Shown here one piece after another: positions 5,926-45,383 of a DNA stretch of 64,000 nucleotides. Numbering within the stretch: the stretch's first letter is position 1; every line of letters starts with the position of its first letter. Source of the stretch: Oscillospiraceae bacterium (GTDB taxonomy: Bacteria > Bacillota > Clostridia > Oscillospirales > Ruminococcaceae); contig JAUNJJ010000006.1 of the NCBI GenBank assembly GCA_030533325.1, positions 1 to 64,000 of the forward strand, in the 5' to 3' direction. The position numbers were made by a program, and so were the translations under genes. A model generated the notes under the pieces. The model had not been told where the DNA came from, did no database searches, and worked only from the letters and a program-made list of their open reading frames with translations.

Positions 5926-5961
5926 TAATAAGATTGGATAATATACGTGAAAAGGATTTCA

Positions 5962-7644
5962 ATGACAATTGTTAATTATTTCGGAAGGGGTTCTGCTTTG
6001 AAAAACAAGAATAAATCCAACATACTCATTGTTGCCGTTTTCTTCATTTTTTATTTCTTTGGCTATATGATGATAGTAATGCTTAATGATATCAGCCAGG
6101 ATTCAATACCCTTTATGGGAGGAGAGATTCAGATTGCAAGCATCAGCGGCATAATCGCCTCGCTGCAGATGATGATAAGCGTAACCTTATCCGGCATAAA
6201 TCTCAGATTCGCCAGAATATCTGCTCATTTGCTTCCGTTATTTTCAGCGATATCCACAACGCTCTATATTATGCGTTCCGGTAATCCCACAGCGATTCCG
6301 GGAGTAACAATGCAGGCAGTATGCTTCATCGCAGTTATAATTATACATAATTTAATAAAAAGACGCGAAAAGGACGCTCTTACTGATTATCTGACCGGAG
6401 CTCATAACAGAAGAAGTATATCGAACAGCCTTGAGCGTATGGTAAAGTCCGGGAAACCATTCAGCGTAATATATGTTGATATAGACGAATTCAAGTTTAT
6501 CAATGATAACTACGGTCACAAAATTGGTGACAGAGTTATAAAAGTCATCGCTTCCAGAATAAGTGACCTGATTGATTCAAAAACAGTATTCGGCCGAATA
6601 GGAGGAGATGAATATATTCTTCTTGTTCCCGGCGACATTTCCGTATCCGAAAAACTCTCCGGTGACATACTTGATGCTGTAAAAAAAGAAATATACATAG
6701 GCGATACAAACACCTGCCACTACCTTACTGCAAGTATAGGAATATCTCAGTTTCCGAAAGATTCAAAAAATTCTTCTGAACTTATCAGATATGCCGATAT
6801 CGCAATGTACAGTGTTAAATCCACAGGTAAAAACGGCATAAAGCTTTTTGAAAAAGAGCTTGAAACTGAAATGATGCGAATATCCGGTATAGAGTCTCTT
6901 GCCCAGAAATACATAACAGAGGAAAGCTTTAAGTTTGCCTACCAGCCTCAGTACTGTGCAAAAACAAAAAAACTTCGTGGTTTTGAAACTCTCCTCCGCA
7001 TCCGTGAAGAGGACCGGAACATAGTTTCAACACAGGAACTTATTTCTGTAGCTGAAAAATCTGATATCATATTCCGCATAGACGAATATGTACTGAAAAA
7101 AGCACTTGAAGAATTCAAACCCAATATACAGAAGTACAGTGATCTTATTCTCTCTGTAAATATTTCAGCCAAGCATATTTCAAAAAAAGGATTCCCTCTG
7201 GCAGTTGAACGTATACTTGCAGAAACCGGATTTCCTGCTGAACAGCTTGAAATAGAAATAACAGAATACTGCCTTGCCGGTTCTGTTGACACAACTATAC
7301 AAAATATGAACAAACTCAGAAAACTCGGCATAAAAATTGCCCTTGATGACTTCGGCACCGGTTATGCTTCACTCTCGTATCTCTCAAGACTTCCTGTCAA
7401 CCTTCTGAAAATTGACAAAAGCTTCATTGACAGACTCAGTGACAGCAGCTCAGTGGACTTCATAAGTGCCATCATCTCAATGGGACATATTCTCGGATGT
7501 GAAGTTATTTCCGAAGGTATTGAATCACAGTCCCAGCTTGACATAGTAACGGAAAAGAACTGCGACTTCATACAGGGATTTCTGTGGGGCGCACCTCTTG
7601 ATATTAAAATGGCATCTGAACTCTGTGAAAAAATATGCAGGTAA
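5962..7644 (+). CDS. Membrane GGDEF-EAL protein (cyclic di-GMP metabolism)
   Basis: Predicted bifunctional or phosphodiesterase-dominant cyclic di-GMP enzyme. Four hydrophobic segments occupy roughly residues 15-130 with no recognisable sensor domain. A GGDEF domain follows (about 140-295); its signature is GGDEY (214-218), Tyr replacing Phe, and no RxxD inhibitory site lies five residues upstream. The EAL domain (about 310-555) keeps the catalytic set: ETLLR (342-346, Thr in place of Ala), NISAKH, EIEITE, DDFGTGYASL, KIDKSFI, EGIE and QGFLWG. The metal and substrate residues are therefore present and hydrolysis is likely. The start is uncertain: GTG 5947, ATG 5962 (AAAAGGA five bases away, preferred), or TTG 5998 with GGAAGGGG upstream. 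Monocistronic. Confidence 0.9.
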   Translation: MTIVNYFGRGSALKNKNKSNILIVAVFFIFYFFGYMMIVMLNDISQDSIPFMGGEIQIASISGIIASLQMMISVTLSGINLRFARISAHLLPLFSAISTTLYIMRSGNPTAIPGVTMQAVCFIAVIIIHNLIKRREKDALTDYLTGAHNRRSISNSLERMVKSGKPFSVIYVDIDEFKFINDNYGHKIGDRVIKVIASRISDLIDSKTVFGRIGGDEYILLVPGDISVSEKLSGDILDAVKKEIYIGDTNTCHYLTASIGISQFPKDSKNSSELIRYADIAMYSVKSTGKNGIKLFEKELETEMMRISGIESLAQKYITEESFKFAYQPQYCAKTKKLRGFETLLRIREEDRNIVSTQELISVAEKSDIIFRIDEYVLKKALEEFKPNIQKYSDLILSVNISAKHISKKGFPLAVERILAETGFPAEQLEIEITEYCLAGSVDTTIQNMNKLRKLGIKIALDDFGTGYASLSYLSRLPVNLLKIDKSFIDRLSDSSSVDFISAIISMGHILGCEVISEGIESQSQLDIVTEKNCDFIQGFLWGAPLDIKMASELCEKICR

Positions 7645-19657: not shown

Positions 19658-20662
19658 TTATATCTTCCTGACATTTTCCGTGGACTGACGGCATACAAGT
19701 CTGTGGTTAAGAAATACCCTCCCCTTGTTATTTCCTCCGGTTATGTTTTCTATAACAAGCCTTGATACCGTTTTCCCGATTTCGAAACACGGCTGTTCAA
19801 CAGTTGTTATAGAAGGCGTGTACATCTCAGTCATACTTATATTATCGAATCCGATGACCGAAAATTCTCTTCCGATATTAATGCCGGTTTCCGTACCTTT
19901 TTTTATAACTCCGGCAGCAAGAAAGTCAGAAACTGCAAATACAGCGGTTGGTTTGTTTTCCATTCTCATAAAGTATTCCACTGCCTTCATTCCGCTTGTA
20001 TAATCGTATGAATCCCTGAAGATATATTTTTCATCAAACTCAATATTATGTTCCTTAAGAGCACGGATATAACCGGCTTCTCTCTCAACAGACGAAGGCG
20101 CTCTTCCCTCTGTTGACACCATGCCTATTTTTCTGTGACCTATTGAAATAAGATAGCTCACCGCATCATAAGCTGCTTTTTCATTGTCAATTGTAACAGT
20201 CAGTACGTCTGAATTTTCACGCGGCTCGCAGCACAGCGCAATGCAGTACTGCTCTGAAAGTTCCTTCAGAACGGCATCATCAAGTACAGTGCCCATAAGA
20301 ACAGCTGCATCAACTGTCCTGTTTCTGAGCATTCCCAGAAGACGTTCCTCGTGAGGCCGGTAACTGTTTGTTGTGCTCATAAACACATCATATCCGTAAT
20401 TGAGAGCCTCAACCTGCATCCCGTGAAGGATCTCACTGTAATATGTGTGCTCTGTGGAAGGTATAAGGGCAAGTATAACATTTGTTTCACGCTTTCTGAG
20501 GTTTCTGCCAAGGAAATTAGGCCGGTAATTAAGTTCCTTTATAGCCTCATTTACCTTTTCTGCAGTTTCAGGAGACACTACAGCACTGTTATTAAGTACC
20601 CTCGAAATAGTGGCAACTGATACTCCCGCCAGTTTTGCAACATCTTTTATTGTAGCTTCCAA
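19658..20662 (-). CDS. LacI-family transcriptional regulator
   Basis: DNA-binding sugar-responsive repressor, 334 residues. The helix-turn-helix with hinge is at residues 1-60 (IKDVAKLAGVSVATISRVLNN, then LNYRPNFLGRNLR) and a periplasmic-binding-protein-like effector domain covers 62-330 (DVFMSTTNSYRPHEERL, AAVLMGT, GHRKIGMVS, FAVSDFLAAGVI, GFDNISMTEMYTPSITTVEQP). The start codon is TTG, with GGAG eight bases upstream, so translation is probably modest. It is divergent from the first CBM22-type receptor gene. An operator-like palindrome lies at its own promoter, suggesting autoregulation. The effector is unknown; oligosaccharides from plant fibre are plausible from context. Confidence 0.92.
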   Translation of the reverse strand: MEATIKDVAKLAGVSVATISRVLNNSAVVSPETAEKVNEAIKELNYRPNFLGRNLRKRETNVILALIPSTEHTYYSEILHGMQVEALNYGYDVFMSTTNSYRPHEERLLGMLRNRTVDAAVLMGTVLDDAVLKELSEQYCIALCCEPRENSDVLTVTIDNEKAAYDAVSYLISIGHRKIGMVSTEGRAPSSVEREAGYIRALKEHNIEFDEKYIFRDSYDYTSGMKAVEYFMRMENKPTAVFAVSDFLAAGVIKKGTETGINIGREFSVIGFDNISMTEMYTPSITTVEQPCFEIGKTVSRLVIENITGGNNKGRVFLNHRLVCRQSTENVRKI

Positions 20663-20910: not shown

Positions 20911-20939
20911 TAGACAAGTTTACACAAAAATGATATACT
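20911..20939 (+). promoter_or_regulatory. Promoter of the first receptor gene
   Basis: TAGACA (20911-20916), 17-base spacer, TATACT (20934-20939). The same TAGACA -35 is used by the second receptor gene. Confidence 0.6.
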
Positions 20940-20995: not shown

Positions 20996-22870
20996 ATGAA
21001 TTTTAAAAAACTTATACCAGGAATAATTCTGGCACTGTCTTTATCATTGCCGTATACGGTGACCGCAGAAACTGACAACACAGTTCCTGATGATACACCT
21101 GTTTATGCTGATGACTTTGAACTTGAAACCATAAACGGCTGGAGTGTCCTCGGCGGTGTTGGTACGATGTCAATCGACACTTCAAGAAAACATTCCGGCA
21201 ATTCCAGTCTGAATATTACGGGAAGAGCCAATACATTCAATGGTCCGTCAATAAGTCTTGACAAAATTTTTGAATCGGAGGAAACATACCGTATTGAAGG
21301 CTGGGTATACCACGAGAGTTCGAAAAAAGAAACTATTAACTGTACACTCAGATATGCTGATTCCGTAAATGTAAACACTTATGAAGGTATTGCTGTTATT
21401 GAAGCACCTCCTTCATCATGGGTTCATTTTGAGGGTACAGTGGAAACTCCGGAAGATCTTACTTCTACACTTCTTTACTTCGAAAGTCCGGACGCAAGCC
21501 TTGACTATAATATAGACGACATAGCCATTTACGGAAAAGCCCCTGAAAATGCTGTTTCCGAAGACAAAAAAGGCTCCGACATCGTTTCAAGCTACAAGTT
21601 CGACTTTGAAAGCGGATTCGGTGACTGGATACAGCGAGGAGACACACGCATAATCAGAAGCAATGAACAGCAGTGTACAGGGGACTACTCAATCCTCTCA
21701 ACAAACAGAGAAAAAAGCTGGAACGGTCCTACTGTTTCCATCGATGGTGTTGAGCGAGGCGTTGAATACACATACGAAGCCAATGTTCTCTATACTGAGA
21801 AAAAAGCTGATGACTCCCACCTCTTCATGCTTCAGGTTCAGTACTCATACAACGGAAATGAAGTATACGATCTTATCGGAAGTGCTGAAGTACAGAAAAA
21901 TGTCTGGACAAAGATTAAAGGCACCCTTGTCATTCCCGAAGGTGCTGCAAATGTAATGCTTTACGTACAGACGGATAACGTTGAAGACGGTGTAACCCCG
22001 ACTTTAACAGACCTTGTTTCTTTCTACATAGATGACGTATCGGCTGTAAGAAGCGACCTTATTAATCCCAAAAAGAACATCGTATATATATTAATTTTTG
22101 CCGGAATAATTGCAGCACTTATCATTCTTATTGTCATAATTGCAAAGTCACTCTCCCAGAGTTCAGATGAAACAAATGAAGAAGAAAAAGAAGAACTTGA
22201 TTCTGTCAGCAAAGTGATAAATTCACTTGAAAACAACAAGCCTGTTCTGCCGGCTAATTCCGGAACAAAAACTGTAAACAATACTGCTGATACAAAAAAT
22301 GAAAACAAACCGGCTGAAGCAAAGAAAGAACAAGAAGATAATTCAGCTAAACCTTCAGACAACAGCAAAGAAAAGCAGAACAAGTCAGTTTCCGGTAACA
22401 GCAGCAGTTCTTCATCAAAAAAATCAGGAAAGGAAAAGAACAAAAATTCCTCATCAGGAAAACCGGCACAAACCGAAAACAATAAGTCTGAAAAATCCGT
22501 TTCCGGAGACAAGAACAAAAAGTCCGGCTCTTCTTCGGAAAACGTTAAGAAAGATTCAGATAATTCTGTAAAACAGTCTGAAAACAAAAAAACGGATACA
22601 AAGGAAAAAGCAAAGTCAGAACCAGCTGAAAGCAAATCAGCAGGCAGCAAAGACAGCAGTTCTGAAAATAAAGAAAAGGTCTCCGTCACTGAAAAAAGCA
22701 GCACTACTGAAAAATCGGCAGAAAAACCGGAAAAATCCGAATCACCGGTTTCAGATGACTCAAGAGCAAGAGATATATTCAACATTGAAACCTTCTCATA
22801 TGATGAAGGAAACACGCAATACGATGAAAACTCTGATGATCCGCTTGAAAATCCATTTGAAGGATTCTGA
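20996..22870 (+). CDS. Membrane protein with two extracellular CBM22-like modules and a long disordered cytoplasmic tail
   Basis: A 624-residue surface protein. Signal peptide about 1-25. Two carbohydrate-binding modules of CBM22/CBM4_9 type: module 1 (about 36-185, GWSVLGGVGTMSID ... FNGPSI ... YNIDDIAIYG) and module 2 (about 198-350, DWIQRGDTRII ... WNGPTV ... FYIDDVSAV). One transmembrane helix about 361-383. The cytoplasmic tail of about 240 residues is almost purely Ser, Lys, Glu, Asn and Asp, with a more ordered acidic end. The outside half is paralogous to the next two genes, but the GGDEF domain is absent. The membrane-proximal module keeps the RG and WNGP elements typical of xylan-binding CBM22; the distal one has Phe for Trp. 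It could act as a co-receptor or anchor. Own promoter and terminator. Confidence 0.85.
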   Translation: MNFKKLIPGIILALSLSLPYTVTAETDNTVPDDTPVYADDFELETINGWSVLGGVGTMSIDTSRKHSGNSSLNITGRANTFNGPSISLDKIFESEETYRIEGWVYHESSKKETINCTLRYADSVNVNTYEGIAVIEAPPSSWVHFEGTVETPEDLTSTLLYFESPDASLDYNIDDIAIYGKAPENAVSEDKKGSDIVSSYKFDFESGFGDWIQRGDTRIIRSNEQQCTGDYSILSTNREKSWNGPTVSIDGVERGVEYTYEANVLYTEKKADDSHLFMLQVQYSYNGNEVYDLIGSAEVQKNVWTKIKGTLVIPEGAANVMLYVQTDNVEDGVTPTLTDLVSFYIDDVSAVRSDLINPKKNIVYILIFAGIIAALIILIVIIAKSLSQSSDETNEEEKEELDSVSKVINSLENNKPVLPANSGTKTVNNTADTKNENKPAEAKKEQEDNSAKPSDNSKEKQNKSVSGNSSSSSSKKSGKEKNKNSSSGKPAQTENNKSEKSVSGDKNKKSGSSSENVKKDSDNSVKQSENKKTDTKEKAKSEPAESKSAGSKDSSSENKEKVSVTEKSSTTEKSAEKPEKSESPVSDDSRARDIFNIETFSYDEGNTQYDENSDDPLENPFEGF

Positions 22871-22907
22871 AAAAAATCTGACCAGGAATGTCCTGGTCAG
22901 ATTTTTT
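22871..22907 (+). terminator. Terminator of the first receptor gene
   Basis: 22871-22887 (ending ATCTGACCAGGA) pairs with 22891-22907 around loop ATG, with A/T flanks. Confidence 0.92.
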
Positions 22908-22954
22908 CGTTAAAACTGACAGATATTTTTGAACACTATGTTGCACAATGAGTA

Positions 22955-22983
22955 TAGACATCAGTTGCATTAAATGGTATAAT
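22955..22983 (+). promoter_or_regulatory. Promoter of the second receptor gene
   Basis: TAGACA (22955-22960), 17-base spacer, TATAAT (22978-22983). Confidence 0.72.
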
Positions 22984-23037
22984 ATAAATACAAAATTAAC
23001 TTTGTATGGGGAAAATTATGAACAGGGGGAATAATCC

Positions 23038-24702
23038 ATGAAAAAATTATTAAGTACATTTACCGTCATCACTTCTTTGTTTCTTTCATGTCTGAGTCCG
23101 GTGCTGTCTCAGAATTATGCAAGTGCAGAATCTGATGACGTTATTTTTTCGAGTGATTTTGACGACGGAAATATAAACGAATGGTCAGTCTTCGGAGGCA
23201 GCGCAAAATTAAGTCTCGACACAAGCGTAAGTCATTCGGGTGAAAACAGCTTGAGAGTAACGGACAGAAGTGAAGCTTATCACGGACCGTCATTAACTGC
23301 AGATTCCTTATTCACTCCGGAAAAGGTATACAATTTTTCCGCATGGGCGTATCAGAAAAGTGATTCTGTAAAAACACTTCTCTGGACACTCAAATATGTC
23401 GACTCTGTCGGTAAAGCGGAGTATATGCAGATTGCAAGTTCTGACCTTCAATCCGGAACCTGGACGTTGCTCACCGGAACAATCACAATACCTGAGGATT
23501 CCGTTTCATATCTTATGTACTTCGAATGTGCCAATGCAACAGTTGAATTCTGCATTGATGACGTGGTTATCACTGGTGACAGAAACAATATCGAAGAGCG
23601 CGGAACAGATAAAAAAGGTTATCTTTATTCATTTGACTTTGAGAGCGGCAACGAACTGTGGAGTCCCCGCGGAAACAACAGCCTTGTACGAACAGACGAA
23701 TACAGCAATACCGGATCACACTCCATATACGTGACAAACCGAGCCCAAACCTGGAACGGTCCTACAGTAAATATTAACGATGTGAAACGTGATACCGAAT
23801 ATTTCTATTCGGCTTATGTAATGTACAACGGTGAAGAATATGAAGACAGTCACGACTTCCGTATGGAAGTTCAGTATAACCTGAACGGAGAAACGGTATA
23901 TCAGCTAATCAGAGAGCAGAATGTCAAAAAACACAAATGGACCAGAATTGCCGGAACCTATACAGTTCCTGAAGGGGCGGCAGATGTATCGTTTTATCTT
24001 CAGACTGCAAATATAGAAGATGAGAACAACTATACAGTAAACGATCTCATGTCATTCTATACCGACTCAGTAATAATCTCTGAAGCATCAAACATTCACA
24101 AAAAAACAGCCATAATTGTATTTGTTGTATCAGTAATCTCAGTTGTACTCCTTCTTATCCTGAGGTATATTATTCTTATTTTTGCAAAAAGAAGTAAAAA
24201 GAAAAAAGCTGCACTTAACTCTATAACCAAAGATGCTATGACTCAGTGTTACAACAGAAATGCCTATGAAAAACGCATCGCAGAACTTGAAAATGACAGT
24301 GAAAAGTGTAAATCTCTTTACTTTACACTTTGTGATGTAAACTTTCTCAAGTACATTAATGACAACCACGGGCACGAAAAAGGCGATGAAGCTATTACAC
24401 GATGTGGTCAGATGCTTATGGATGCGGTAGGCAGTGACGGAATGGTATACAGAACCGGCGGCGACGAATTTGTCTGCATTTCATCCAAACCTGTTCATGA
24501 AAAGATACGTGATGCCATTGAACGTGAATCTGCAATTGACCAGGGATATCCTTTTGCTGTAGCTTCAGGTTTTGCTGAGTATGATCCTGAACTCGACACA
24601 GACAAGCCTGATATAAATGTAATTATTGAACGTTCAGACAAAGAGATGTACATCAACAAACAGGAAATAAAATCTAAAAATCCAGACTACTCAAGAAAGT
24701 AA
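23038..24702 (+). CDS. Receptor diguanylate cyclase: 2 x CBM22-like, transmembrane helix, GGDEF
   Basis: A 554-residue predicted transmembrane diguanylate cyclase with glycan-binding outside modules. Signal peptide about 1-30. Module 1 about 36-183 (EWSVFGGSAKLSLD ... YHGPSL ... FCIDDVVITG). Module 2 about 195-348 (LWSPRGNNSLVR ... WNGPTV ... QYNLNGETVYQ). Transmembrane helix about 356-382, then a basic stretch. The GGDEF domain (about 392-545) has DVNFLKYINDNHGHEKGD and the intact motif RTGGDEF (GGDEF at 474-478); no RxxD inhibitory site lies five residues upstream. Module 2 resembles the second CBM22 of the xylanase at 37.6 kb (QY.LNGET.Y, WNG). Inference: binding of xylan or mixed glucan outside controls cyclic di-GMP synthesis inside. 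Own promoter; start supported by AGGGGG upstream. Confidence 0.9.
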   Translation: MKKLLSTFTVITSLFLSCLSPVLSQNYASAESDDVIFSSDFDDGNINEWSVFGGSAKLSLDTSVSHSGENSLRVTDRSEAYHGPSLTADSLFTPEKVYNFSAWAYQKSDSVKTLLWTLKYVDSVGKAEYMQIASSDLQSGTWTLLTGTITIPEDSVSYLMYFECANATVEFCIDDVVITGDRNNIEERGTDKKGYLYSFDFESGNELWSPRGNNSLVRTDEYSNTGSHSIYVTNRAQTWNGPTVNINDVKRDTEYFYSAYVMYNGEEYEDSHDFRMEVQYNLNGETVYQLIREQNVKKHKWTRIAGTYTVPEGAADVSFYLQTANIEDENNYTVNDLMSFYTDSVIISEASNIHKKTAIIVFVVSVISVVLLLILRYIILIFAKRSKKKKAALNSITKDAMTQCYNRNAYEKRIAELENDSEKCKSLYFTLCDVNFLKYINDNHGHEKGDEAITRCGQMLMDAVGSDGMVYRTGGDEFVCISSKPVHEKIRDAIERESAIDQGYPFAVASGFAEYDPELDTDKPDINVIIERSDKEMYINKQEIKSKNPDYSRK

Positions 24703-24710
24703 TTTTTCTG

Positions 24711-24746
24711 AAAATCCCCCTTGTACATTCAAAAAGGGGGATTTTT
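24711..24746 (+). terminator. Terminator of the second receptor gene
   Basis: AAAATCCCCCTT (24711-24722) pairs with AAGGGGGATTTT (24734 onward), followed by T. Confidence 0.88.
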
Positions 24747-24760
24747 ATATAATGTGCATA

Positions 24761-24790
24761 TTGACTATATAGCCACGTTGGTGTTATAAT
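24761..24790 (+). promoter_or_regulatory. Promoter of the third receptor gene
   Basis: TTGACT (24761-24766), 18-base spacer, TATAAT (24785-24790). Confidence 0.72.
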
Positions 24791-24834
24791 ATAACCAGCA
24801 TTATACCGAATTGATAAGGGAGGTGGGAAAAAAT

Positions 24835-26511
24835 ATGAAGAAGATATTGTCGGCATTGTTTACTGCAGCCACAGTTTTCAGTATTATTTTCTGCCCTGAT
24901 ATATCATTTCCTGTCAGCGGTTATGCATTTTCTGACTATAAGCCCGATGAACAAATTATTTACCAGCAGGACTTTGAAGACGGATTCGGAAACTGGGCTC
25001 CCCTTGGAGGTACGGCAGATCTTAAAATAGACACAAGATACAGCAGAAAAGGTTCCTCCTCACTTCAAGTATCAAACCGTCTGGAATCCTGGAACGGTCC
25101 ATGTGTAAGTACCACGAATATTCTCCTTCCCGGAGAAACATATTCATTTGAGGCGTGGGTTCACCAGGACGGGAATGAGATGCATACGATAAACTGGACA
25201 CTTCAGATCACAGATTCAAAAGGAAAAAACGATTACCTGCGGATTGCCGAAGGAAATGTCGGCGCAGACGAATGGAAAGATCTTAAAGGAAAACTTACAA
25301 TTCCGGAAAACACTGAATCCTCCTGTATGTATTTTGAAACATCCGACATCGAACTTTGTTTCAACGTTGATGCAGTTACCGTAAAGGGGGGCGAGCAGGC
25401 GGAAGTATCATCCCTGAGCAGTACAGGAACTGTAGAATTTACCTACGGGTTTGAAGAAGGAACTGACGGATGGAAACCAAGGGGAAACGAAGCGGTTAGC
25501 CGATCTTCAAACTTCAGCTACCTCGGCCGTTATTCCCTGTATGTGTCTGAAAGGACGAAGTTCTGGAACGCTCCGGCAATTAATATTTCATCAGTTATCA
25601 AACCCGGAATTTGTTACGAATATTCTTCATACGTGATGTATAACGGTCGTTCGTATGAAAACGAGCATGACTTCATTATAGCTCTTGAATACACATCAGA
25701 CGGAAAGATAAACTATCAGGTCCTTGATTCAAAAACTCTCCAGAAGGGTAACTGGTCAAGACTTTCAGGAGATTTCACTCTTCCGGAAAGTGCAACAGAT
25801 ATTTCTCTGTATATACAGACAGCGGATCCTGAAGATCCATCAAATATCACTGAAAATGATTTAATGTGCTTTTACATCGACAATGTAACAATAATGGACA
25901 GCACAGTTATAAAACAGCGTCAGCTGATAAAGAACTTTATAATTATTGCACTTGTAACACTGTCTTTCGCTGCCATCATTATCATATCTCTGATTATTAT
26001 AAAAAAAGCAAATGAAACCAGTACTCTGATTGCAAATGCTGAAAAAGACTGCATGACTGATACATTCAACAGAAACAGCTTTGAAATACAGATTGCCCAC
26101 CTTGAAAACTGCCCTGAAGAATGCAGAAAAATATATATCACCCTGTGTGACGTAAACTTTCTCAAACACATAAACGATAACTATGGTCATCAGAAGGGTG
26201 ACGATGCGATAATAAGATGTGCAGAAATCCTGAAAAAAACCACAGGTTCAAAAGGCTCTGTATACAGAACCGGTGGTGATGAATTTGTTTGCATTACAAA
26301 AACAAACATGCAGGATAAGATAAAAACCGCTATGAACATTGAATCACAGCAATACAAAGGTTATCCTTTTGCCGTGGCTGTGGGAACTGCAAAATATGAT
26401 CCTTCTGAAGACGGAAATGTTCCGGATATTAAACTTATACTTGCACGCAGTGACAAGGAAATGTACAATGACAAACAGCAGATTAAGGAATCTTCAAAAA
26501 ATTTCATATAA
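24835..26511 (+). CDS. Receptor diguanylate cyclase: 2 x CBM22-like, transmembrane helix, GGDEF (second copy)
   Basis: A 558-residue paralogue of the preceding gene. Signal peptide about 1-30. Module 1 (about 40-190) has NWAPLGGTADLKID and WNGPCV; module 2 (about 200-355) has GWKPRGNEAVSR, WNAPAI and FYIDNVTI. Transmembrane helix about 362-386. The GGDEF domain (about 395-550) has DVNFLKHINDNYGHQKGD and RTGGDEF (480-484), again without an RxxD inhibitory site. ATG 24835 is chosen because GGGAGGTGGG lies just upstream; the frame extends to a TTG at 24811 that overlaps this site. In module 1 the Trp of WNGP is kept here but replaced in the other two paralogues, hinting at different ligand preferences. 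Own promoter and terminator. Confidence 0.9.
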   Translation: MKKILSALFTAATVFSIIFCPDISFPVSGYAFSDYKPDEQIIYQQDFEDGFGNWAPLGGTADLKIDTRYSRKGSSSLQVSNRLESWNGPCVSTTNILLPGETYSFEAWVHQDGNEMHTINWTLQITDSKGKNDYLRIAEGNVGADEWKDLKGKLTIPENTESSCMYFETSDIELCFNVDAVTVKGGEQAEVSSLSSTGTVEFTYGFEEGTDGWKPRGNEAVSRSSNFSYLGRYSLYVSERTKFWNAPAINISSVIKPGICYEYSSYVMYNGRSYENEHDFIIALEYTSDGKINYQVLDSKTLQKGNWSRLSGDFTLPESATDISLYIQTADPEDPSNITENDLMCFYIDNVTIMDSTVIKQRQLIKNFIIIALVTLSFAAIIIISLIIIKKANETSTLIANAEKDCMTDTFNRNSFEIQIAHLENCPEECRKIYITLCDVNFLKHINDNYGHQKGDDAIIRCAEILKKTTGSKGSVYRTGGDEFVCITKTNMQDKIKTAMNIESQQYKGYPFAVAVGTAKYDPSEDGNVPDIKLILARSDKEMYNDKQQIKESSKNFI

Positions 26512-26521
26512 AAAATTACAT

Positions 26522-26552
26522 AAAAAACCCTGTCAGGATGACAGGGTTTTTT
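26522..26552. terminator. Bidirectional terminator between the receptor gene and groEL
   Basis: AAAAAACCCTGTCA (26522-26535) pairs with TGACAGGGTTTTTT (26539-26552) around GGA. Confidence 0.94.
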
Positions 26553-26577: not shown

Positions 26578-28230
<1,653 letters not shown>

Positions 28231-37627: not shown

Positions 37628-40600
37628 ATGTATAATTTTAAAAAAGCATGTGCTGCACTCTCGGCAATAGCAGTTACTGCTTGTACACTCAGTGCTTTTC
37701 CTGAGTCATCAGTTCAGCAGCTCAGTGCAGAAGCTGTCTGTGTAGCAAACAACTTTGACGTCGAATACGAAGGCTGGTGCAATGCCGGTGATCTGACAGA
37801 ACTTACAGCCGACGAGCAGAACCCGCATAACGGAACAAGAAGCATGCGTGTTTCAAATCGTCTTACACCTGAGGACGGTGCAAGTTCAGCAAAGGGTCTG
37901 TGGCTCTGGGGCGGAAGAAACTATAGTTACAGTGTTTTCGTTAAGCACAGCAGCGGAAACCTCGAAAACTTCAGGCTCTCCATGTCTTATCTTCTTTCTG
38001 ACGGAGAAACCTGGGAAGATACAGTAATCGCTGAAGGTTCAGCATCATCAGGTCAGTGGACAGAGCTCGAAGGAAAGTTCAGAGCTCCTGAAGGTGCTTC
38101 AGAATTTATTGTAAAGATTACAACAGACAGCACATGTGATTTCTGGTTCGATGACTTCACAGTTGAAGGAAAAAAATACAGCAGCAGTGTTGTTTCAGCT
38201 GCAGGAAACGGTCTTAAGGATGAATTTGCCAACTACTTCAGAGTTGGTAATATTCTCAACGGCGGTACAGTTAAGAACTCAACTATCACAGCAGAGTATC
38301 TGAAAGACTTCAACAGTATCGAATGCGAAAACGAAACAAAGCCTGATGCAACGCTCGTAAAGAACGGAAGTACAGACACAAATATCAATGTATCACTCAA
38401 CAGCTGTGCTGCCATTGCAGACTGGTGTTCAAAGAACGGAATGGGCTTCCGTGGTCATACTCTTGTATGGCACAGTCAGACACCGCAGTGGTTCTTCAAG
38501 CAGGGATTCAATGACAGCGGAGCATGGGTAAGCAAGGATGTAATGAACAAGCGTCTTGAAAGCTATATCAAGAATATGTTCAATGCTTTCAAAACACAGT
38601 ATCCGAACCTCAACCTGTATGCATACGACGTTGCCAACGAATGTATGAATGACAGCAACGGCGGACCAAGAACAGGCGGTTACGGTAACGGAGCCTCACC
38701 ATGGACACAGGTTTACGGAGACAACAGCTTTATTGAACTGGCGTTCAAATATGCAAGACAGTATGCACCTGCAGGCTGTGACCTCTACTACAACGACTAT
38801 AACGAATACATGGCTAACGGTAAGAAGCAGGCTATCATGGCACTTGCAAAGGATCTCTACGGAAAGGGTCTCCTTGACGGTGTGGGTATGCAGTCACACG
38901 TACCTGCCAACGCGACAGGCTTTGCAGGCACAGTGGATTACCTTCAGGCGATGGATGACTATCTTGCAATCGGATGTGACGTTCAGGTCACAGAACTTGA
39001 TATTTCACTTGAAAACGGTAAATATTCACTTCAGGATCAGGCAACCAAGTACAAGGCCATTTACCAGCATGCTGTTGATCACAACAAGGCAAACAAAGCC
39101 GGTCAGGGTAAGGTAACACTTGTACAGGTATGGGGTCCTAACGACGCAAACTCATGGCTTAGTGCAGGTTCCAACGCACTTCTCTTCGACAGTAACCATC
39201 AGCCTAAGCTTGCATATAACGAACTCATCAAGCTTCTCCCGCAGTCAGAATGGGGCGACGGAAACAACCCTGTTTACGGCGGTGGCGGAGAACCAGCCAA
39301 ACCGGCTGAACCTGATGCAAACGGATATTACTATCATTATGATATGGAAAGTGATATCAGTGCATTCGAAGCACGCGGCGGCTGTACTATAGGACCAAGC
39401 GGAAGATTCCCTTACAAGGGAAGCGAAGCTCTTGTAATTTCAGAACGTTCGGATGCATGGAACGGTGCCCAGCTTTCACTCAGCACTACAACATTTGTAC
39501 CGGGTAACGAATATTCATTCAGTGCTTGTTTTGCTGAACTTGACGGTCCTGATGCATGTGAATTCAAGATGACGCTTCAGTATGACCTCAACGGTGAAAC
39601 AAACTATGACATGGTCGCTCAGACAAGTGCAAACAACGGCGAATATGTTCAGCTTGCAAATACAAACTACAAGATTCCTGAGGGTGCTTCAAACCTTACA
39701 CTTGTATTTGAAACAACAGAAGAAACATGCAATTTCTACATTGACGAAGTAATAATTGCGGTAGCAGGAACAAAGATTGACGGACCGACTTCAACAGTTG
39801 TTCCGACAACAAAGATTAAAGGAGACCTTGACTTTGACAGCAAAATTACAGTAGCAGACCTTGTTCTTCTCAAGAGCGGACTTATTGAAGGCTTTAAGAA
39901 CAAATCAGCTCAGACAAACGGAGACGTTGACAAGAGCACAGAGACAAACGCTGCAGATGCTCTCAACCTTCAGAAGTATCTCCTTGGTGCTATCAGCGAA
40001 TTCCCGGACAATACTCCTCCGGAGCCTGAAAAGAAACCTATGCGTACAATTTCAGAATACACACCTACAGTAAAGGTTTCAGAATTTGAAACAGCAGATT
40101 CAAAGCAGGAAAAAGCAGGTGTTCAGTACGGTACTGTTAAGGCAGGCACATACTACTCGACAACATGTAACCGCAACAAGCCATACAACATTCTTCTCCC
40201 TGCAAACTACTCAACAGACAAGCAGTACCCTGTACTCTATGTAATGCACGGATACTGGGAAAACCAGGACAGAATGATTATCAAGGGCAACGATACAATG
40301 TACACCCGTCAGATTATCGGAAACGCTATTGCTGACGGAAGTGCAGAAGATATGATTGTTGTATTCCCTTACATCTACTCCAGTGCTACTCAGGAAAACT
40401 GTTCAGCAATGGACGATGCAAACAATGCAGCTTATGACAACTTCATTAATGACCTCACAAAGGATCTCATGCCTCACATTGAAAAGACATACAGTGTAAA
40501 GACAGGCAGAGAAAACACTGCCATTACAGGCTTCTCAATGGGCGGACGCGAAGCCCTCCTCATCGGAATGAAGCGTCCTGACCTCTTCGGTTATGTCGGT

Positions 40601-40849
40601 GCTATCTGTCCTGCACCTGGTGTTACAGGTTCATTCAAGTGGAACTCTGAAGAAGAAGCACCATCACTTCTCTTCATCACAGCCGGAAGCAACGATACAA
40701 TCGTTTACTCAAACCCTGAAAATTACCACAACAACTTCACAAAGAACGGTGTGCCTCATATCTGGCACTATGTAAACGGCGGATACCACGGCGACAACAG
40801 TATCCACGCACATATCTACAACTTTGTAAGAGCAGTATTCAAAGCATAA
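37628..40849 (+). CDS. Modular xylanase/esterase: CBM22-GH10-CBM22-dockerin-CE1
   Basis: A secreted 1073-residue plant cell wall enzyme. Signal peptide about 1-36; CBM22-like module about 38-185; GH10 endo-1,4-beta-xylanase about 188-540; second CBM22 about 568-714; dockerin about 730-792; family CE1 esterase about 830-1073. The GH10 acid/base is Glu338 in YDVANECMN and the nucleophile Glu456 in QVTELDIS; HTLVWHSQTPQWFF is conserved. The dockerin has two Ca-loop/helix segments (GDLDFDSKITVADLVLLK and GDVDKSTETNAADALNLQ). The esterase has the Ser970 nucleophile in GFSMGGREAL and His in GGYHGDN, fitting feruloyl or acetyl-xylan esterase. An internal dockerin between catalytic domains is typical of R. 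flavefaciens enzymes. It probably attaches to a cellulosome scaffold. Monocistronic; AGGAGG precedes the ATG. Confidence 0.96.
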   Translation: MYNFKKACAALSAIAVTACTLSAFPESSVQQLSAEAVCVANNFDVEYEGWCNAGDLTELTADEQNPHNGTRSMRVSNRLTPEDGASSAKGLWLWGGRNYSYSVFVKHSSGNLENFRLSMSYLLSDGETWEDTVIAEGSASSGQWTELEGKFRAPEGASEFIVKITTDSTCDFWFDDFTVEGKKYSSSVVSAAGNGLKDEFANYFRVGNILNGGTVKNSTITAEYLKDFNSIECENETKPDATLVKNGSTDTNINVSLNSCAAIADWCSKNGMGFRGHTLVWHSQTPQWFFKQGFNDSGAWVSKDVMNKRLESYIKNMFNAFKTQYPNLNLYAYDVANECMNDSNGGPRTGGYGNGASPWTQVYGDNSFIELAFKYARQYAPAGCDLYYNDYNEYMANGKKQAIMALAKDLYGKGLLDGVGMQSHVPANATGFAGTVDYLQAMDDYLAIGCDVQVTELDISLENGKYSLQDQATKYKAIYQHAVDHNKANKAGQGKVTLVQVWGPNDANSWLSAGSNALLFDSNHQPKLAYNELIKLLPQSEWGDGNNPVYGGGGEPAKPAEPDANGYYYHYDMESDISAFEARGGCTIGPSGRFPYKGSEALVISERSDAWNGAQLSLSTTTFVPGNEYSFSACFAELDGPDACEFKMTLQYDLNGETNYDMVAQTSANNGEYVQLANTNYKIPEGASNLTLVFETTEETCNFYIDEVIIAVAGTKIDGPTSTVVPTTKIKGDLDFDSKITVADLVLLKSGLIEGFKNKSAQTNGDVDKSTETNAADALNLQKYLLGAISEFPDNTPPEPEKKPMRTISEYTPTVKVSEFETADSKQEKAGVQYGTVKAGTYYSTTCNRNKPYNILLPANYSTDKQYPVLYVMHGYWENQDRMIIKGNDTMYTRQIIGNAIADGSAEDMIVVFPYIYSSATQENCSAMDDANNAAYDNFINDLTKDLMPHIEKTYSVKTGRENTAITGFSMGGREALLIGMKRPDLFGYVGAICPAPGVTGSFKWNSEEEAPSLLFITAGSNDTIVYSNPENYHNNFTKNGVPHIWHYVNGGYHGDNSIHAHIYNFVRAVFKA

Positions 40850-40866
40850 TATTTTTCCCACAGACC

Positions 40867-40898
40867 CCCGTACAGCAGAGTAAGATTTGCTGTACGGG
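40867..40898 (+). terminator. Terminator of the xylanase gene
   Basis: CCCGTACAGCA (40867-40877) pairs with TGCTGTACGGG (40888-40898), followed by ATTGTTTTG. Confidence 0.85.
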
Positions 40899-41007
40899 AT
40901 TGTTTTGTGGTTTCAAAAATGATTTTATAAGAAAAAACGGTTAAAAGCTGTTTTCGTGACAATAATTTATTGGTTTTACCAGATATTTATCAGATTACAG
41001 TATTTTC

Positions 41008-41037
41008 TTGACAAATCAGAAACAAATGTAGTAGAAT
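41008..41037 (+). promoter_or_regulatory. Promoter of the NPCBM/cohesin-like operon
   Basis: TTGACA (41008-41013), 18-base spacer, TAGAAT (41032-41037). Confidence 0.7.
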
Positions 41038-41073
41038 AATCTTAAAATATTTTTATGATAAGGTGTGATAATT

Positions 41074-43743
41074 TTGAATTTATTCAGGAAAAAATTATTA
41101 GGTGTTATGGCTTTCAGTCTCGCTGCCGGTATGACATTTACTGGAACAATGTCAGCATATACTCCCTTAGATTACAACAGCATATCTGCTGTGGAAGCTT
41201 CTGCTTCATCGGAACTTCTTAGTTCTGCAACAGGAAATACACGCTGCAAAATATACAACAATGAAACAGAAACCTTCAATATGAACGGAAGAACCTATTC
41301 ACAGGGTGTAGTTATGGGGGACGGTTCATATAACGACGGTGCAGAAATTACATTTGACGTATCAAATCTGAGCTCTGTTACTTTTTCACTCGGACATGTA
41401 GATAATACAAGCTCCAGTTCCACTGAAATCACTATATATCTCGACGGGACAGTAGAAGACATAATAACTCTTACACAAAATGAACCTATAGTTGAAGGAT
41501 ACTCCGTCAACGTTTCAGAAGCTTCAACTATGCGTATAGTAAGAACTGGCGATTATTCAAAATACGCTCTTGCGGATATATCGGCAGATTCTGAAAGTGT
41601 TAAGACGTACACTTCTCCGGAATATAAAACATCAGCTTCATTTGTTGACAGCATATATGACAGCTACCGCTGCGAAAAGTATGATGGAACCAACGCTGAA
41701 AATTCATTCCGTATGCAGGGAAGAACATACAGCAGCGGTATTGTTATGGGCGACGGCAGCTATAATGACAATGCTGCTCTTTCAATCAATGTAGAAAACG
41801 TAAATAATATATCCATGACTCTCGGTCATGTTGACAACAGCCAGCTGTCAAATACTGAAGTCTCAGTTTATCTTGACAATGTTCTCGAAGACAGACTGGT
41901 TCTCACTCCGAACGAACCTCTTCAGGAATATAAACTGGATGTCTCAGGTGCATCCACACTCCGTATTGTCCGCGACGGAAATTATTCAAAATACGCTCTC
42001 GCAGATATTTGCTTTGATGATGTTTCACCGGAGATTACATATCAGACACCTCAGTACAAAACATCATCTTCCTTTGTAAAGGATATCTACAACAGCTACA
42101 GAACAAGTGTATTTGACGGATCTTCCTCGGCTCTCTCATTTAACATGAACGGAAGATCATATTATCAGGGCATTGTCATGGGGGATGGTTCATACAATGA
42201 AAATGCAGCATTTTCACTTAACGTTGAAAATCTGAAAACTGTTTCTTTTGATTTAGGGCATGTAGATAACAGCAGATCAGACGAAGCTGTTTTTACAGTC
42301 TATCTTGACAATGAACCGGTTGACAAATTCAAACTGACTCAGAATCAGCCAATAAGAGAAGATTACAGTATTGACGTTTCAGCGGCAAAAGTACTCCGTA
42401 TAGAACGTGACGGCAGTTACTCTCAGTATGCTTTGGGAAATATAGAAACAGAGGAACTGGTTCCGAAAAATTCATACAGCATTCCTGAATATAAAAACTC
42501 TGCTTCTTTTGTCGGAAGTCTGTATGACACCTACCGCACCAAAACATATGACGGCATCAGCAGTGCTATCAGTTTCAATATGCAGGGACGTACATATTAT
42601 CAGGGACTGATACTCGGTGACGGATCATATAATGAAGGTGCTGCTGCATCATTCAATGTAGAAAATCTTAAAACAATCACATTTGATCTGGGTCACGTTG
42701 ACAATTCCAGAACATCATCTGCTAATCTATATATATATCTGGACGGCGAACAGGAAAGAACTATTGAACTCTCCTATCAGAAACCAATAGAAACAATTAC
42801 TGTTGATGTTTCATCTGCAAAAACCATGCGTGTTTATCGTGATGAAAGCTATTCACAGTATGCACTGGGAAATATCATAGCTGATGAACTTGCTCCGAAA
42901 AATTCATACAGTGTCCCTGAACAGGAATCTGCAAAGAAATTAGTTGCTTCAAACTATGATTCTTTCCGCACGGAATTCTACACTGACACAGACCAGTTTA
43001 CAAAATTCACCATGAACGGTCAGGATTATACTCTTGGATTTATAATGGGGGACGGATCATACAATGAAGGGGCCGGCGTATCTTTTAACGTTGAAAAGCT
43101 TGATGCTGTAACCTTCAGTCTTGGTCTTATCAGCGAAAAGCAGAATGCTGAAGAAACTTTGTCCATATACAAAGACGGCGAACTGAGTGACGAAATACTC
43201 CTTACTCCTGAAAATATAGTAAAATTAAAGAATTATACCATTGACACAGCAGGAGTTTCAACTATCCGTTTTTACAAGAATAAAGGATACACAAAATATG
43301 GTATCGTAGATCTGAGCGTTACCCCTGCTTCACAGACACCTTCGACACCTGTTACAACACCGGCAGTTACAGCTGCGCCTCCGGTTTCATCAGTAACTTC
43401 CGAAGCACCTGTAACAACAGCGGTTTCTTCAGTAACCTCCGAAGCTCCGGCAACTTCAGCTGTTACATCTGTAACAACAGCCCAAACAACTAATGTTGTA
43501 ACTACTGCGGTTTCAGCTGTTACAACAACTGTTCAGACCCCTGCCGGAGGAAGCGGTGATGCGAACGGCGACGGAAAAATCACAACTTCAGATGTAAGAT
43601 GCATTCTTCAGTATCTTGTAGGCTCATACAAACTTTCAGATGAAACTCTCAAAGCCGCTGATGTTGACGGAAACGGTTCTGTAAACAGCGCTGATGCATT
43701 AAAACTTCTCAGAAAGATTGCCGGCGTTACAGAGACAGAATAA
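41074..43743 (+). CDS. Secreted protein of five NPCBM-like modules and a dockerin
   Basis: An 889-residue protein with a signal peptide (about 1-30) and five tandem modules of about 135 residues. Each is recognisable by F.M.GR.Y.QG..MGDGSYN, then FSLGHVDN and a SKYALADI-type end. They resemble the NPCBM/NEW2 fold (novel putative carbohydrate-binding module) but are divergent; the fifth is the least conserved. A Thr/Pro/Val/Ser linker (about 745-825) precedes a C-terminal dockerin (GDANGDGKITTSDV ... DVDGNGSVNSADALKLLRK). There is no catalytic domain, so it is likely a multivalent glycan-binding subunit of a cellulosome. TTG 41074 is the likely start, AAGGTG eight bases upstream; GTG 41065 is an alternative. 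The next gene follows after 23 bases, so the two form an operon. Confidence 0.82.
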   Translation: MNLFRKKLLGVMAFSLAAGMTFTGTMSAYTPLDYNSISAVEASASSELLSSATGNTRCKIYNNETETFNMNGRTYSQGVVMGDGSYNDGAEITFDVSNLSSVTFSLGHVDNTSSSSTEITIYLDGTVEDIITLTQNEPIVEGYSVNVSEASTMRIVRTGDYSKYALADISADSESVKTYTSPEYKTSASFVDSIYDSYRCEKYDGTNAENSFRMQGRTYSSGIVMGDGSYNDNAALSINVENVNNISMTLGHVDNSQLSNTEVSVYLDNVLEDRLVLTPNEPLQEYKLDVSGASTLRIVRDGNYSKYALADICFDDVSPEITYQTPQYKTSSSFVKDIYNSYRTSVFDGSSSALSFNMNGRSYYQGIVMGDGSYNENAAFSLNVENLKTVSFDLGHVDNSRSDEAVFTVYLDNEPVDKFKLTQNQPIREDYSIDVSAAKVLRIERDGSYSQYALGNIETEELVPKNSYSIPEYKNSASFVGSLYDTYRTKTYDGISSAISFNMQGRTYYQGLILGDGSYNEGAAASFNVENLKTITFDLGHVDNSRTSSANLYIYLDGEQERTIELSYQKPIETITVDVSSAKTMRVYRDESYSQYALGNIIADELAPKNSYSVPEQESAKKLVASNYDSFRTEFYTDTDQFTKFTMNGQDYTLGFIMGDGSYNEGAGVSFNVEKLDAVTFSLGLISEKQNAEETLSIYKDGELSDEILLTPENIVKLKNYTIDTAGVSTIRFYKNKGYTKYGIVDLSVTPASQTPSTPVTTPAVTAAPPVSSVTSEAPVTTAVSSVTSEAPATSAVTSVTTAQTTNVVTTAVSAVTTTVQTPAGGSGDANGDGKITTSDVRCILQYLVGSYKLSDETLKAADVDGNGSVNSADALKLLRKIAGVTETE

Positions 43744-43766
43744 CAGCAGTATAAGGAGAATCCGTA

Positions 43767-45383
43767 ATGAAAAAAATTATATCCGTTATAACTGCACTTT
43801 CCCTTGCATGCACAGGCTTCATTTCCTACAGGACATCATTTCCGGATGAAACTGCTGTTCAGGCTGTTGCCGTTTCAGAGGGAAAGGTAAGAATTCATGT
43901 AAGCGAGGAACTTTCTGCCACAAACGGAATGTTTACTGTTACATACAATCCGGAAAAAATCAAAATTGATGAAAGTATTGTTCTGAATGAAGCTCTTTCC
44001 GGCACAATGAATGTAGTGAACACACAGACAGCCGGAAAAATCGTTATATGCTTCGCTTCAGCAAAGGCAGTTACAATCTCAGAGTATATTGCAGAACTGT
44101 CCTTCACTTCATTAACCGTAGAGGCAGCTGATACTTCTGACCTGTTTACGCTTAATGTTGATGAACTTATAACACTGGATGCTGATGGTACAGAAAAAGA
44201 TGTTCCGGCAAAAAATATCGGAATTTCTTTAGCTGAGCCTGCTCCTGAATTTATTTTCGGACTCAAAGACCAGACTGATGATAATATAGAAATATCTTTT
44301 GATATTTCAGAGAACCCGGGAATAACAAATGGTGTTTTCACCATGAAGTATGACACTTCCCTTCTCGAATTCGAATCCGGAACAAGCGGAAGTATTTTTG
44401 AAAATGCATTTTTTGAAATAAACGAAAGTGAACCGGGTATCATTAAAATAGCCTTTTTAAGCAACGAAACAATCACTAATAAAGGCACTGCAGCCACAAT
44501 CGTATTCAAGTGCAAAAAAGAAGGCACAGCAAAAATAAACTTAACTGCAAACGAACTTGATAATATAGATAAAGACGGAAACACTTTGAGTTATTATGTT
44601 CCTGAGCAGTCTGCATCTGTACCGGTAAAGGCAAATACAGTTTCTTCTCCGGCAGTAGAAATTACTGCATCAGAATCAGAAAAAAACAGTGCATATATCA
44701 GTATATCAGAGAATTCCGGTATAACTAACGGTATTTTCACCGTAAAATACGACACCTCCGTTCTTGAATTCAAGTCCGGAACACCATGCGAGCTCTTTGA
44801 AGGTGCATTATGTGAAATAAACGAATCTGAACCGGGTGTTATCAAAATTGCCTTTATAAGCAATTCCCCTGTTACATTAAACGGAAATGCCGTAAAACTC
44901 GATTTTGAAGCAAAGAAATCAGGAACGGCAGAACTTAATTTAACAATTAATGAACTTGCAGATATCAGTCAGACCGGAGAATCTCATTCCTTCAATATCC
45001 CGGATTCATTATGGACTATCGAAGCATCTGCTGATTCCGAAGTTTCCGTTACTACACCTGCAGTTACTTCAGAACCGACTGTATCCGAAACTACTGCAGA
45101 TACTACAACAGAACCATCAGTTACAACTGTCCCTCCGGTTACAGAACAGCCGGATATCACTACTTCCGCACCAGCCGGAACAACAACGGCTTACATTGTT
45201 TCTGACCCTATGGAGTGTGACATAAATGACGATGAAGTTGTCACTACTGCAGACCTTATCAAAATAATGCAGGTAATTCTCAGCCAGATACCTGCATCCG
45301 AGTGTCCTTCAGCTGACATAAACAAAGACGGATATGTAAACATCCTTGACTTTATTGCTGTCAGAAAAATATTCCTTGGATAA
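43767..45383 (+). CDS. Scaffold-like protein: three cohesin-like modules and a dockerin
   Basis: A 538-residue secreted protein. Signal peptide about 1-33. Three cohesin-like beta-sandwich modules at about 35-150, 165-285 and 300-420. The second and third are close copies (GITNGVFTMKYDTSLLEFESG and GITNGIFTVKYDTSVLEFKSG, then NESEPGIIKIAFLS). A Thr/Pro/Val linker (about 425-475) leads to a dockerin (CDINDDEVVTTADL ... ADINKDGYVNILDFIAVRKI). Cohesin plus dockerin is the layout of adaptor scaffoldins such as ScaA/ScaC of R. flavefaciens, but these modules are somewhat shorter than classical cohesins (about 140 residues), and dockerin binding is inferred. AAGGAG precedes the ATG. Co-transcribed with the five-module protein upstream. 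Confidence 0.78.
   Translation: MKKIISVITALSLACTGFISYRTSFPDETAVQAVAVSEGKVRIHVSEELSATNGMFTVTYNPEKIKIDESIVLNEALSGTMNVVNTQTAGKIVICFASAKAVTISEYIAELSFTSLTVEAADTSDLFTLNVDELITLDADGTEKDVPAKNIGISLAEPAPEFIFGLKDQTDDNIEISFDISENPGITNGVFTMKYDTSLLEFESGTSGSIFENAFFEINESEPGIIKIAFLSNETITNKGTAATIVFKCKKEGTAKINLTANELDNIDKDGNTLSYYVPEQSASVPVKANTVSSPAVEITASESEKNSAYISISENSGITNGIFTVKYDTSVLEFKSGTPCELFEGALCEINESEPGVIKIAFISNSPVTLNGNAVKLDFEAKKSGTAELNLTINELADISQTGESHSFNIPDSLWTIEASADSEVSVTTPAVTSEPTVSETTADTTTEPSVTTVPPVTEQPDITTSAPAGTTTAYIVSDPMECDINDDEVVTTADLIKIMQVILSQIPASECPSADINKDGYVNILDFIAVRKIFLG

Follow-up and report, generated by a model that had tools for sequence, protein, structure and literature searches.

We analyzed a stretch of 64,000 nucleotides (nt) of contig JAUNJJ010000006.1 from the genome of a Ruminococcus-like, fibre-degrading Oscillospiraceae bacterium (GCA_030533325.1), hereinafter the window, to which coordinates refer unless another stretch is named. 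It carries a tandem of three open frames on the forward strand, encoding putative surface receptors A (20996..22870, 624 aa), B (23038..24702, 554 aa) and C (24835..26511, 558 aa from the ATG). On the whole, the evidence suggests that B and C probably turn contact with xylan outside the cell into a change of cyclic di-GMP (c-di-GMP) inside, with the non-cyclase receptor A tuning or relaying the signal. Each protein displays a signal peptide, two modules of the CBM22 type and one predicted transmembrane (TM) helix, followed by a GGDEF domain in B and C, and by a tail of 240 residues lacking such a domain in A.

This layout, which a preliminary description had proposed from the sequence, was borne out by profile searches. 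When the outside modules were compared with the CBM22, CBM4 and CBM9 families, the Pfam CBM_4_9 model matched A, B and C twice each (E 2.2e-38, 5.5e-44 and 7.9e-51) and the GGDEF model matched B and C (E 3.5e-20 and 3.3e-21), all over curated cut-offs; no Pfam match to GGDEF was obtained in A. The modules, established in this way, lie at 21104..21529 and 21593..22051 in A, 23137..23568 and 23626..24087 in B, and 24952..25380 and 25447..25905 in C, all on the forward strand. CBM22 entries of the PDB are their best matches both by sequence and by predicted fold, and by the same two measures the ectodomains match the CBM22 tandem of the xylanase Xyn10C (PDB: 4xup). Hydropathy agrees with the architecture, showing two hydrophobic stretches per protein, one at the N-terminus and the other internal, the latter at residues 358-390 in A, 352-387 in B and 363-394 in C. 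Searches for a dockerin gave no Pfam match in the three proteins, and their membership among cellulosomal (dockerin-bearing) proteins was accordingly rejected.

The cytoplasmic halves of B and C retain an intact RTGGDEF motif, as had been noted beforehand, within domains at 24229..24666 in B (motif 24457-24471, without an inhibitory I-site) and 26044..26484 in C (motif 26272-26286). A protein search that scored the 7993 candidates sharing most words returned 247 matches at E <= 1e-3, of which 120 were listed; of these, 119 have both Pfam domains, several are named Ruminococcus and one R. flavefaciens, and the database names are of the kind 'carbohydrate binding domain-containing protein' or 'diguanylate cyclase'. 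The GG[DE]EF motif is present in 118 of the 120 listed homologues, the remaining two being short, and a D.N.LK..ND..GH..GD signature in 115, and none of the 118 checked has an RxxD inhibitory site. B and C are thus likely to be transmembrane diguanylate cyclases, to judge from these conserved residues. GGDEF domains synthesize c-di-GMP only when dimeric. In the predicted structure of B, a single helix of residues 350-397 (24085..24228, forward strand) crosses the membrane and passes directly into the cytoplasmic cyclase stalk, in agreement with the single-pass layout first suggested.

These features bear on a different explanation, according to which the proteins are fibre adhesins first, with the CBM22 tandem merely tethering the cell and the GGDEF domain being constitutive or under other inputs, without ligand control, so that c-di-GMP would arise near the attached membrane. 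The CBM22 module is by descent a binding module, the tailed type has binding modules without a cyclase, and the I-site for product control is missing in 118 of 118 homologues, all of which would suit an adhesin. On the other side, the predicted continuity of TM helix and stalk is the arrangement through which sensor cyclases usually pass on a signal, and a tether needs no constant spacing of its two halves, yet 109 of the 120 listed homologues fall within 520-600 residues. We consider a purely adhesive role unlikely.

Inspection of the putative sugar-binding cleft provides pointers to the ligand. We take the cleft positions to be R25, W53, Y103, Y136 and E138 of the Clostridium thermocellum CBM22-2 (1DYO); this numbering agrees with 1dyo, and the 1h6x chain, whose entry title speaks of conserved cleft amino acids, has Ala at position 25. 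Across 111 receptors (the 109 listed homologues of 520-600 residues together with B and C), the second module conserves Arg and Trp in all 111, with Tyr in 109 and Phe in 2 at the Y103 position, and Tyr in 110 and Phe in 1 at the Y136 position. The first module retains Y136 in all 111 and Glu at the E138 position in 107, with Tyr in 77, Trp in 25 and Phe in 9 at the W53 position, and Tyr in 78 and Phe in 33 at the Y103 position. Two departures from the reference cleft tell against a simple equation with xylan binding, namely the Gln at the Glu138 position in every one of the 111 second modules, and the lack of an Arg25 equivalent in all 111 first modules, which have Phe, Leu or Met there. In A, too, the first module has Leu at that position. 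The second module of the A-type has the same R/W/Y/Y/Q set, with R214, W242, Y291, Y323 and Q325 invariant in 22 aligned rows.

The company kept by this set in enzymes points in the direction of xylan. Among the 20 enzyme modules closest to the receptor second module, 16 have R/W/Y/Y/Q, 3 have Glu and 1 has Gly at the last position. The 16 sit in 15 proteins, and all 14 of those scanned contain a glycoside hydrolase (GH) domain of the GH10 and/or GH11 xylanase families, although these loci were selected by likeness to the receptor and CBM22 is in any case a xylanase-associated family; several of the proteins also have a dockerin and a polysaccharide deacetylase or esterase. The link of the modules to plant xylan claimed in the preliminary description therefore finds support in this xylanase partnership. 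The Gln-type set appears compatible with xylan, without amounting to proof of xylan binding, and given that all 14 scanned enzymes bearing it are GH10/GH11 xylanases, xylan would be the likeliest ligand of the receptors. A rather unlikely variant retains the same signalling mechanism with another β-glycan as the input, such as mixed-linkage β-glucan, cellulose, mannan or the organism's own exopolysaccharide. It could account for the altered Glu138 and missing Arg25, the window also encodes a GH16-CBM_4_9 protein, and a GH10 CBM22 tandem of this kind is reported to have bound mannan and cellulose as well as xylans (PMC7151638). Against it stand the presence of a GH10 or GH11 domain in all 14 scanned proteins that bear the Gln-type set and the aromatic residues at the W53, Y103 and Y136 positions in both modules of all 111 receptors.

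A phylogenetic tree of 48 modules, in which 17 of 45 inner branches have support below 80, places the last modules of 9 of the 10 multi-module receptors in one group (91/98) inside a larger group (87/82), where GH11 xylanases are represented by their CBM22 modules and GH10 tandems by their second modules; the last module of the tenth receptor, on a long branch, falls in the larger group only. The first modules of 9 of the 10 receptors form another group (92/81). The receptor second module and xylanase modules thus have a recent origin in common. For the first module the tree offers nothing comparable: those of the GH10 tandems lie outside the receptor first-module group, a point against the main reading. 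A particular likeness of the receptor second modules to the second CBM22 of the GH10 xylanase in the window had been proposed at the outset; the shared WNG and QY.LNGET.Y motifs do align, but the tree pairs the enzyme module with 1DYO (99/88). The simplest history, as read from the sequences, would be that a xylanase-type CBM22 tandem acquired its membrane helix and GGDEF domain by fusion and was later duplicated.

The receptor architecture is conserved within the genus: full-length relatives occur in 10 of 11 genus genomes, the exception being G002. No full-length relative was encountered in the sampled genomes outside it. Among 50 relatives outside the genus the best match (E 1e-48) spans the ectodomain only. 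Of 297 genomes of the family searched at E <= 1e-40, five genus members gave full-length matches and the other nine matching genomes gave the ectodomain only, with GH10 present in all five of the latter matches that were scanned; 391 genomes of the class searched at E <= 1e-30 gave three non-genus matches, each covering one half only. These two limits would pass over divergent domain combinations.

A feature overlooked in the preliminary description is that non-cyclase receptors are a regular component of the arrays. Cyclase and non-cyclase receptors are mixed in all seven arrays read with both flanks, which comprise three receptors in G000 and G001, four in G005, G007 and G009, and eight in G008 and G010. 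The first five genomes have one tailed A-type per array. The enlarged arrays of G008 and G010 lack the A-type and contain three single-module proteins each without an intact GG[DE]EF motif; two further members in each genome carry three modules. Four of these six degenerate proteins still match the GGDEF profile, and one, with YRTDGDEF, is a single residue off the motif and might, on that basis, remain active. The altered motifs TDGDEF, TDGGTF, TQNNEF, VNGGQF, TDANRF and TNNNEF were observed in stretches L049 (5742-9751) and L052 (5782-9845), where they belong to single-CBM membrane proteins at one end of the enlarged arrays.

The tailed type forms a conserved family of its own by sequence comparison. 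After the TM stretch, A continues for about 240 residues rich in Ser, Lys, Glu and Asn (net charge 0 over residues 389-588), divisible into a low-complexity spacer (22160..22759) and a C-terminal peptide ...DIFNIETFSYDE...DDPLENPFEGF (22760..22867), both on the forward strand. Over 16 non-redundant homologues, the majority residue reaches a mean fraction of 0.75 and 0.79 in the modules, 0.26 in the spacer and 0.69 in the last 36 residues. A search with A gave 59 matches, of which 57 (including the window's own) have the same architecture and 56 of these 57 end in PF[DE]GF. This end followed by a stop occurs at seven sites in the 11 genomes and at none in the control; six are the ends of A-type proteins and the seventh is antisense within a frame of 2009 residues. 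No protein outside the A-type was found to end in exactly this pattern in the 11 genomes. The motif IETF.YD likewise has seven sites, six of them A-type, against two control matches, and no partner of A could be recognized in the 11 genomes through a C-terminal motif common to other proteins of the genus. With a floppy spacer leading to a conserved end, the tail resembles a docking peptide. One might alternatively regard A as a decaying receptor that lost its GGDEF domain and has no function of its own, given the weak conservation of the low-complexity spacer and the lack of an A-type in the complete arrays of G008 and G010. The retention of one particular ending in nearly all homologues, its restriction to A-type proteins, and the far higher conservation of the C-terminal peptide than of the spacer preceding it make decay very improbable.

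For the coupling and the role of A, we infer a scheme in which module 2 would grip the xylan chain, with module 1 adding avidity or substrate choice, and the multivalent polysaccharide would gather or re-orient the receptors. This change could be transmitted by the one TM-stalk helix and so alter the pairing of the GGDEF domains, because the membrane helix is predicted to continue as a single helix into the cyclase stalk. Since the ligand-binding part is common to both kinds, the non-cyclase members might vie with the cyclases for xylan or tie them up in inactive hetero-pairs, and in this manner set threshold and gain; a partner protein might dock on the conserved C-terminal peptide of the tailed type. 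The c-di-GMP would then be read by c-di-GMP-I riboswitches, chiefly before genes for transglutaminase-like dockerin proteins and also before pilin genes in two relatives, with pilus ATPases of the MshEN type perhaps being further readers. MshEN domains bind c-di-GMP in some pilus ATPases, and they were detected in 10 of the 11 genus genomes.

The positions of the riboswitches, a plausible read-out that the preliminary description had also overlooked, are established. The c-di-GMP-I class has at least 40 sites over cut-off, distributed in all 11 genus genomes. Fourteen of the 40, which have a conserved expression platform and include at least one site in every genome, lie 97-198 nt 5' of genes for secreted transglutaminase-like proteins, and among five of these proteins scanned the transglutaminase core was present in all five and a dockerin in four. 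Others precede ManA-like genes (5 sites) and pilins (3 sites: one in G007, two in G009), while 8 lie before single unrelated frames and 9 before no called frame. In the source genome, surveyed by genome searches and individual stretches and listed at 6.36% contamination, one such riboswitch precedes a transglutaminase-like secreted protein (L084, 2980-5389, contig C319) and another a secreted protein that combines three SH3 domains with a dockerin (L088, 2923-5070, contig C29); a third riboswitch contig (L085, contig C275) looks foreign by eye. A second c-di-GMP-I-like class of 114-122 nt occurs once per genome in all 11 (L087, 3053-3168; L094, L098, L101, L122, L126 and others); the next called frame encodes a mannose-6-phosphate-isomerase-like protein 398-558 nt further on in five cases, and L094 has a gene of this kind at a greater distance.

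It is conceivable, though doubtful enough that we offer it tentatively, that cellulosome-forming Ruminococcus reads xylan through the ratio of live to cyclase-dead receptors, which would set c-di-GMP and, through it, the riboswitches at dockerin-bearing surface proteins and pilins. Several observations weigh against the main reading given above. At 12 of 18 sites examined (of the 40), the terminator arm pairs with the 3' half of the aptamer (z -1.6 to -3.7); of the other six, three lack such pairing and three were scored on the wrong hairpin arm. Because of this pairing the transglutaminase-dockerin riboswitches are predicted, on weak statistics, to be OFF switches for c-di-GMP, so that induction by fibre would require falling c-di-GMP, and the simple notion of fibre raising c-di-GMP and thereby inducing cellulosome genes may be wrong in sign. 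For the transglutaminase-like dockerin genes of R. flavefaciens FD-1, values of 2.98-4.11, which we read as fold changes on cellulose, are listed in one report (PMC2930009); together with the OFF prediction they leave the sign of the response unsettled. The type IV pilin of R. flavefaciens 007C is described as up on Avicel and little or not on xylan (PMC3672088). The 45 GGDEF matches in the source genome imply that many enzymes drive one shared c-di-GMP pool, and the presence of riboswitches in G002, which has no full-length receptor, implies that the regulon is independent of the receptors. The receptors are hence not directly tied to the riboswitch targets by these data.

Additional published and genomic observations concern the same targets. 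The FD-1 cellulosomal genes most induced on cellulose are reported to be GH11-CBM22 xylanases (PMC2721979), and for a cellulosomal xylanase cluster of C. papyrosolvens a riboswitch in the 5' region has been proposed, with no ligand named (PMC5815224). We draw no direct link between Pil3 and the pilins behind the riboswitches of G007 and G009, the latter measuring 229-236 residues as against 165 plus a 7-residue leader for Pil3 (PMC3672088), and no riboswitch before a pilin was found among the 150 of 224 first-look candidates scored in the source genome. PilZ as a c-di-GMP read-out was rejected, there being no match in the source genome and matches in 2 of the 11 genus genomes. The c-di-GMP-II riboswitch was found in 0 of 11 genomes, with a control that was silent too, and this result is no evidence of absence.

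At the locus itself, the array is flanked on the 5' side by a gene for a LacI-type regulator (19658-20662, reverse strand; Pfam) and on the 3' side by a groEL-like gene (26578-28203, reverse strand), named from its sequence. Each of the 10 receptor-bearing genomes has one or more receptors close to a groEL-like gene, recognized by sequence, on the same contig, at 51-250 bases in 6 of 9 measured loci; in G010, G008 and G001 the distances are 876, 2056 and 3123 bases with other genes intervening. A universal fixed chromosomal site next to groEL was rejected, with receptors on L005 and L007 having other neighbors. The open frame of C extends over 24811-26511, and a TTG start at 24811 would give 566 aa; the ATG at 24835, preceded by GGGAGGTGGG, is the more likely start. 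Promoter-like sites on the forward strand precede A (TAGACA-17-TATACT, 20911..20939, 10/12 matches), B (TAGACA-17-TATAAT, 22955..22983, 11/12) and C (TTGACT-18-TATAAT, 24761..24790, 11/12), those before B and C being the top two of the region by score, although the region's total of such sites is no higher than in shuffles (20 vs 16.6). Terminator-like hairpins follow A (22872..22907) and B (24711..24746), each with a T-run on the forward strand and seen by eye though absent from the scan's list, and C (26522..26552, both strands, from the scan). Given a hairpin after and a promoter-like site before each gene, A, B and C look like three separate transcription units, an arrangement that would allow them to be set independently. 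Elsewhere in the window, a GGDEF-EAL protein (5947-7644) is a candidate for c-di-GMP synthesis or breakdown, and a cellulosomal cluster (37628-45383) includes a GH10 protein with two CBM_4_9 modules, a dockerin and an esterase, an NPCBM-dockerin protein, and a protein in which a dockerin accompanies two cohesin stretches.

Among known systems, the ectodomains are closest to the CBM22-1/CBM22-2 tandems of GH10 xylanases such as Paenibacillus barcinonensis Xyn10C (4xup) and CkXyn10C-GE15A, with which they share module order and the fold across the whole ectodomain; in five of five such tandems the first module has receptor module 1 and the second receptor module 2 as its best BLAST match. The receptors differ in having a TM helix and a GGDEF domain or tail where the enzymes have the catalytic GH10 domain. 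Sensor diguanylate cyclases (DgcB, WspR, DgcR and others by fold) have in common with B and C the GGDEF fold, the motif and a helical stalk, whereas the receptors have a CBM22-tandem ectodomain and no Pfam match to HAMP, PAS, Cache or receiver domains. The best class-wide match of the GGDEF half (residues 360-554) outside the genus, at 42% identity, is to multi-pass clostridial GGDEF proteins (L106, L107), which differ, by eye, in their several membrane helices and another N-terminal region. The union of GGDEF with a domain that acts on glycans has a precedent in the GH126-GGDEF protein of Bacillus velezensis, a single protein with GH126 and without CBM22 (PMC7479077). Such receptors are not described in the accessible parts of three other papers, one of them on a HAMP-GGDEF protein with reported alpha-glucosidase activity (PMC5457731), the others being PMC6851124 and PMC6801697. 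In line with the opening statement that no described CBM22-GGDEF receptor family is known, none was found in literature searches covering mostly open-access papers.

The closest functional analog is RsgI of C. thermocellum, which likewise is reported to combine an outside carbohydrate-binding or GH module, a single membrane helix and inside control of cellulosome genes (PMC12203970; PMC12484212), but which has the opposite topology and acts by proteolytic release of a sigma factor rather than by a second messenger (PMC12203970). Membership of the receptors among RsgI-like proteins was rejected, with no Pfam match to RsgI_N in A, B or C and none in the 11 genus genomes (0/11), the Bacillus subtilis control being positive. 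By term counts, two Ruminococcus genome papers have no mention of RsgI, GGDEF or diguanylate in their main texts, and a third has none of GGDEF. Because these papers are silent on RsgI and GGDEF and the genus genomes lack RsgI_N, it appears to be an open question how rumen ruminococci notice insoluble substrate and adjust the cellulosome. The receptors would be direct candidates for such a sensor and open to experiment, since the class of substrate is likely, the second messenger is a known one and candidate target genes can be named. By membership, they belong to CBM22 by fold and, in the case of B and C, to the GGDEF cyclases; the system would work like RsgI and is not RsgI. If the proposal is true, arrays of live and dead receptors would represent a second, independent solution to the task performed by SigI/RsgI in Clostridium thermocellum.

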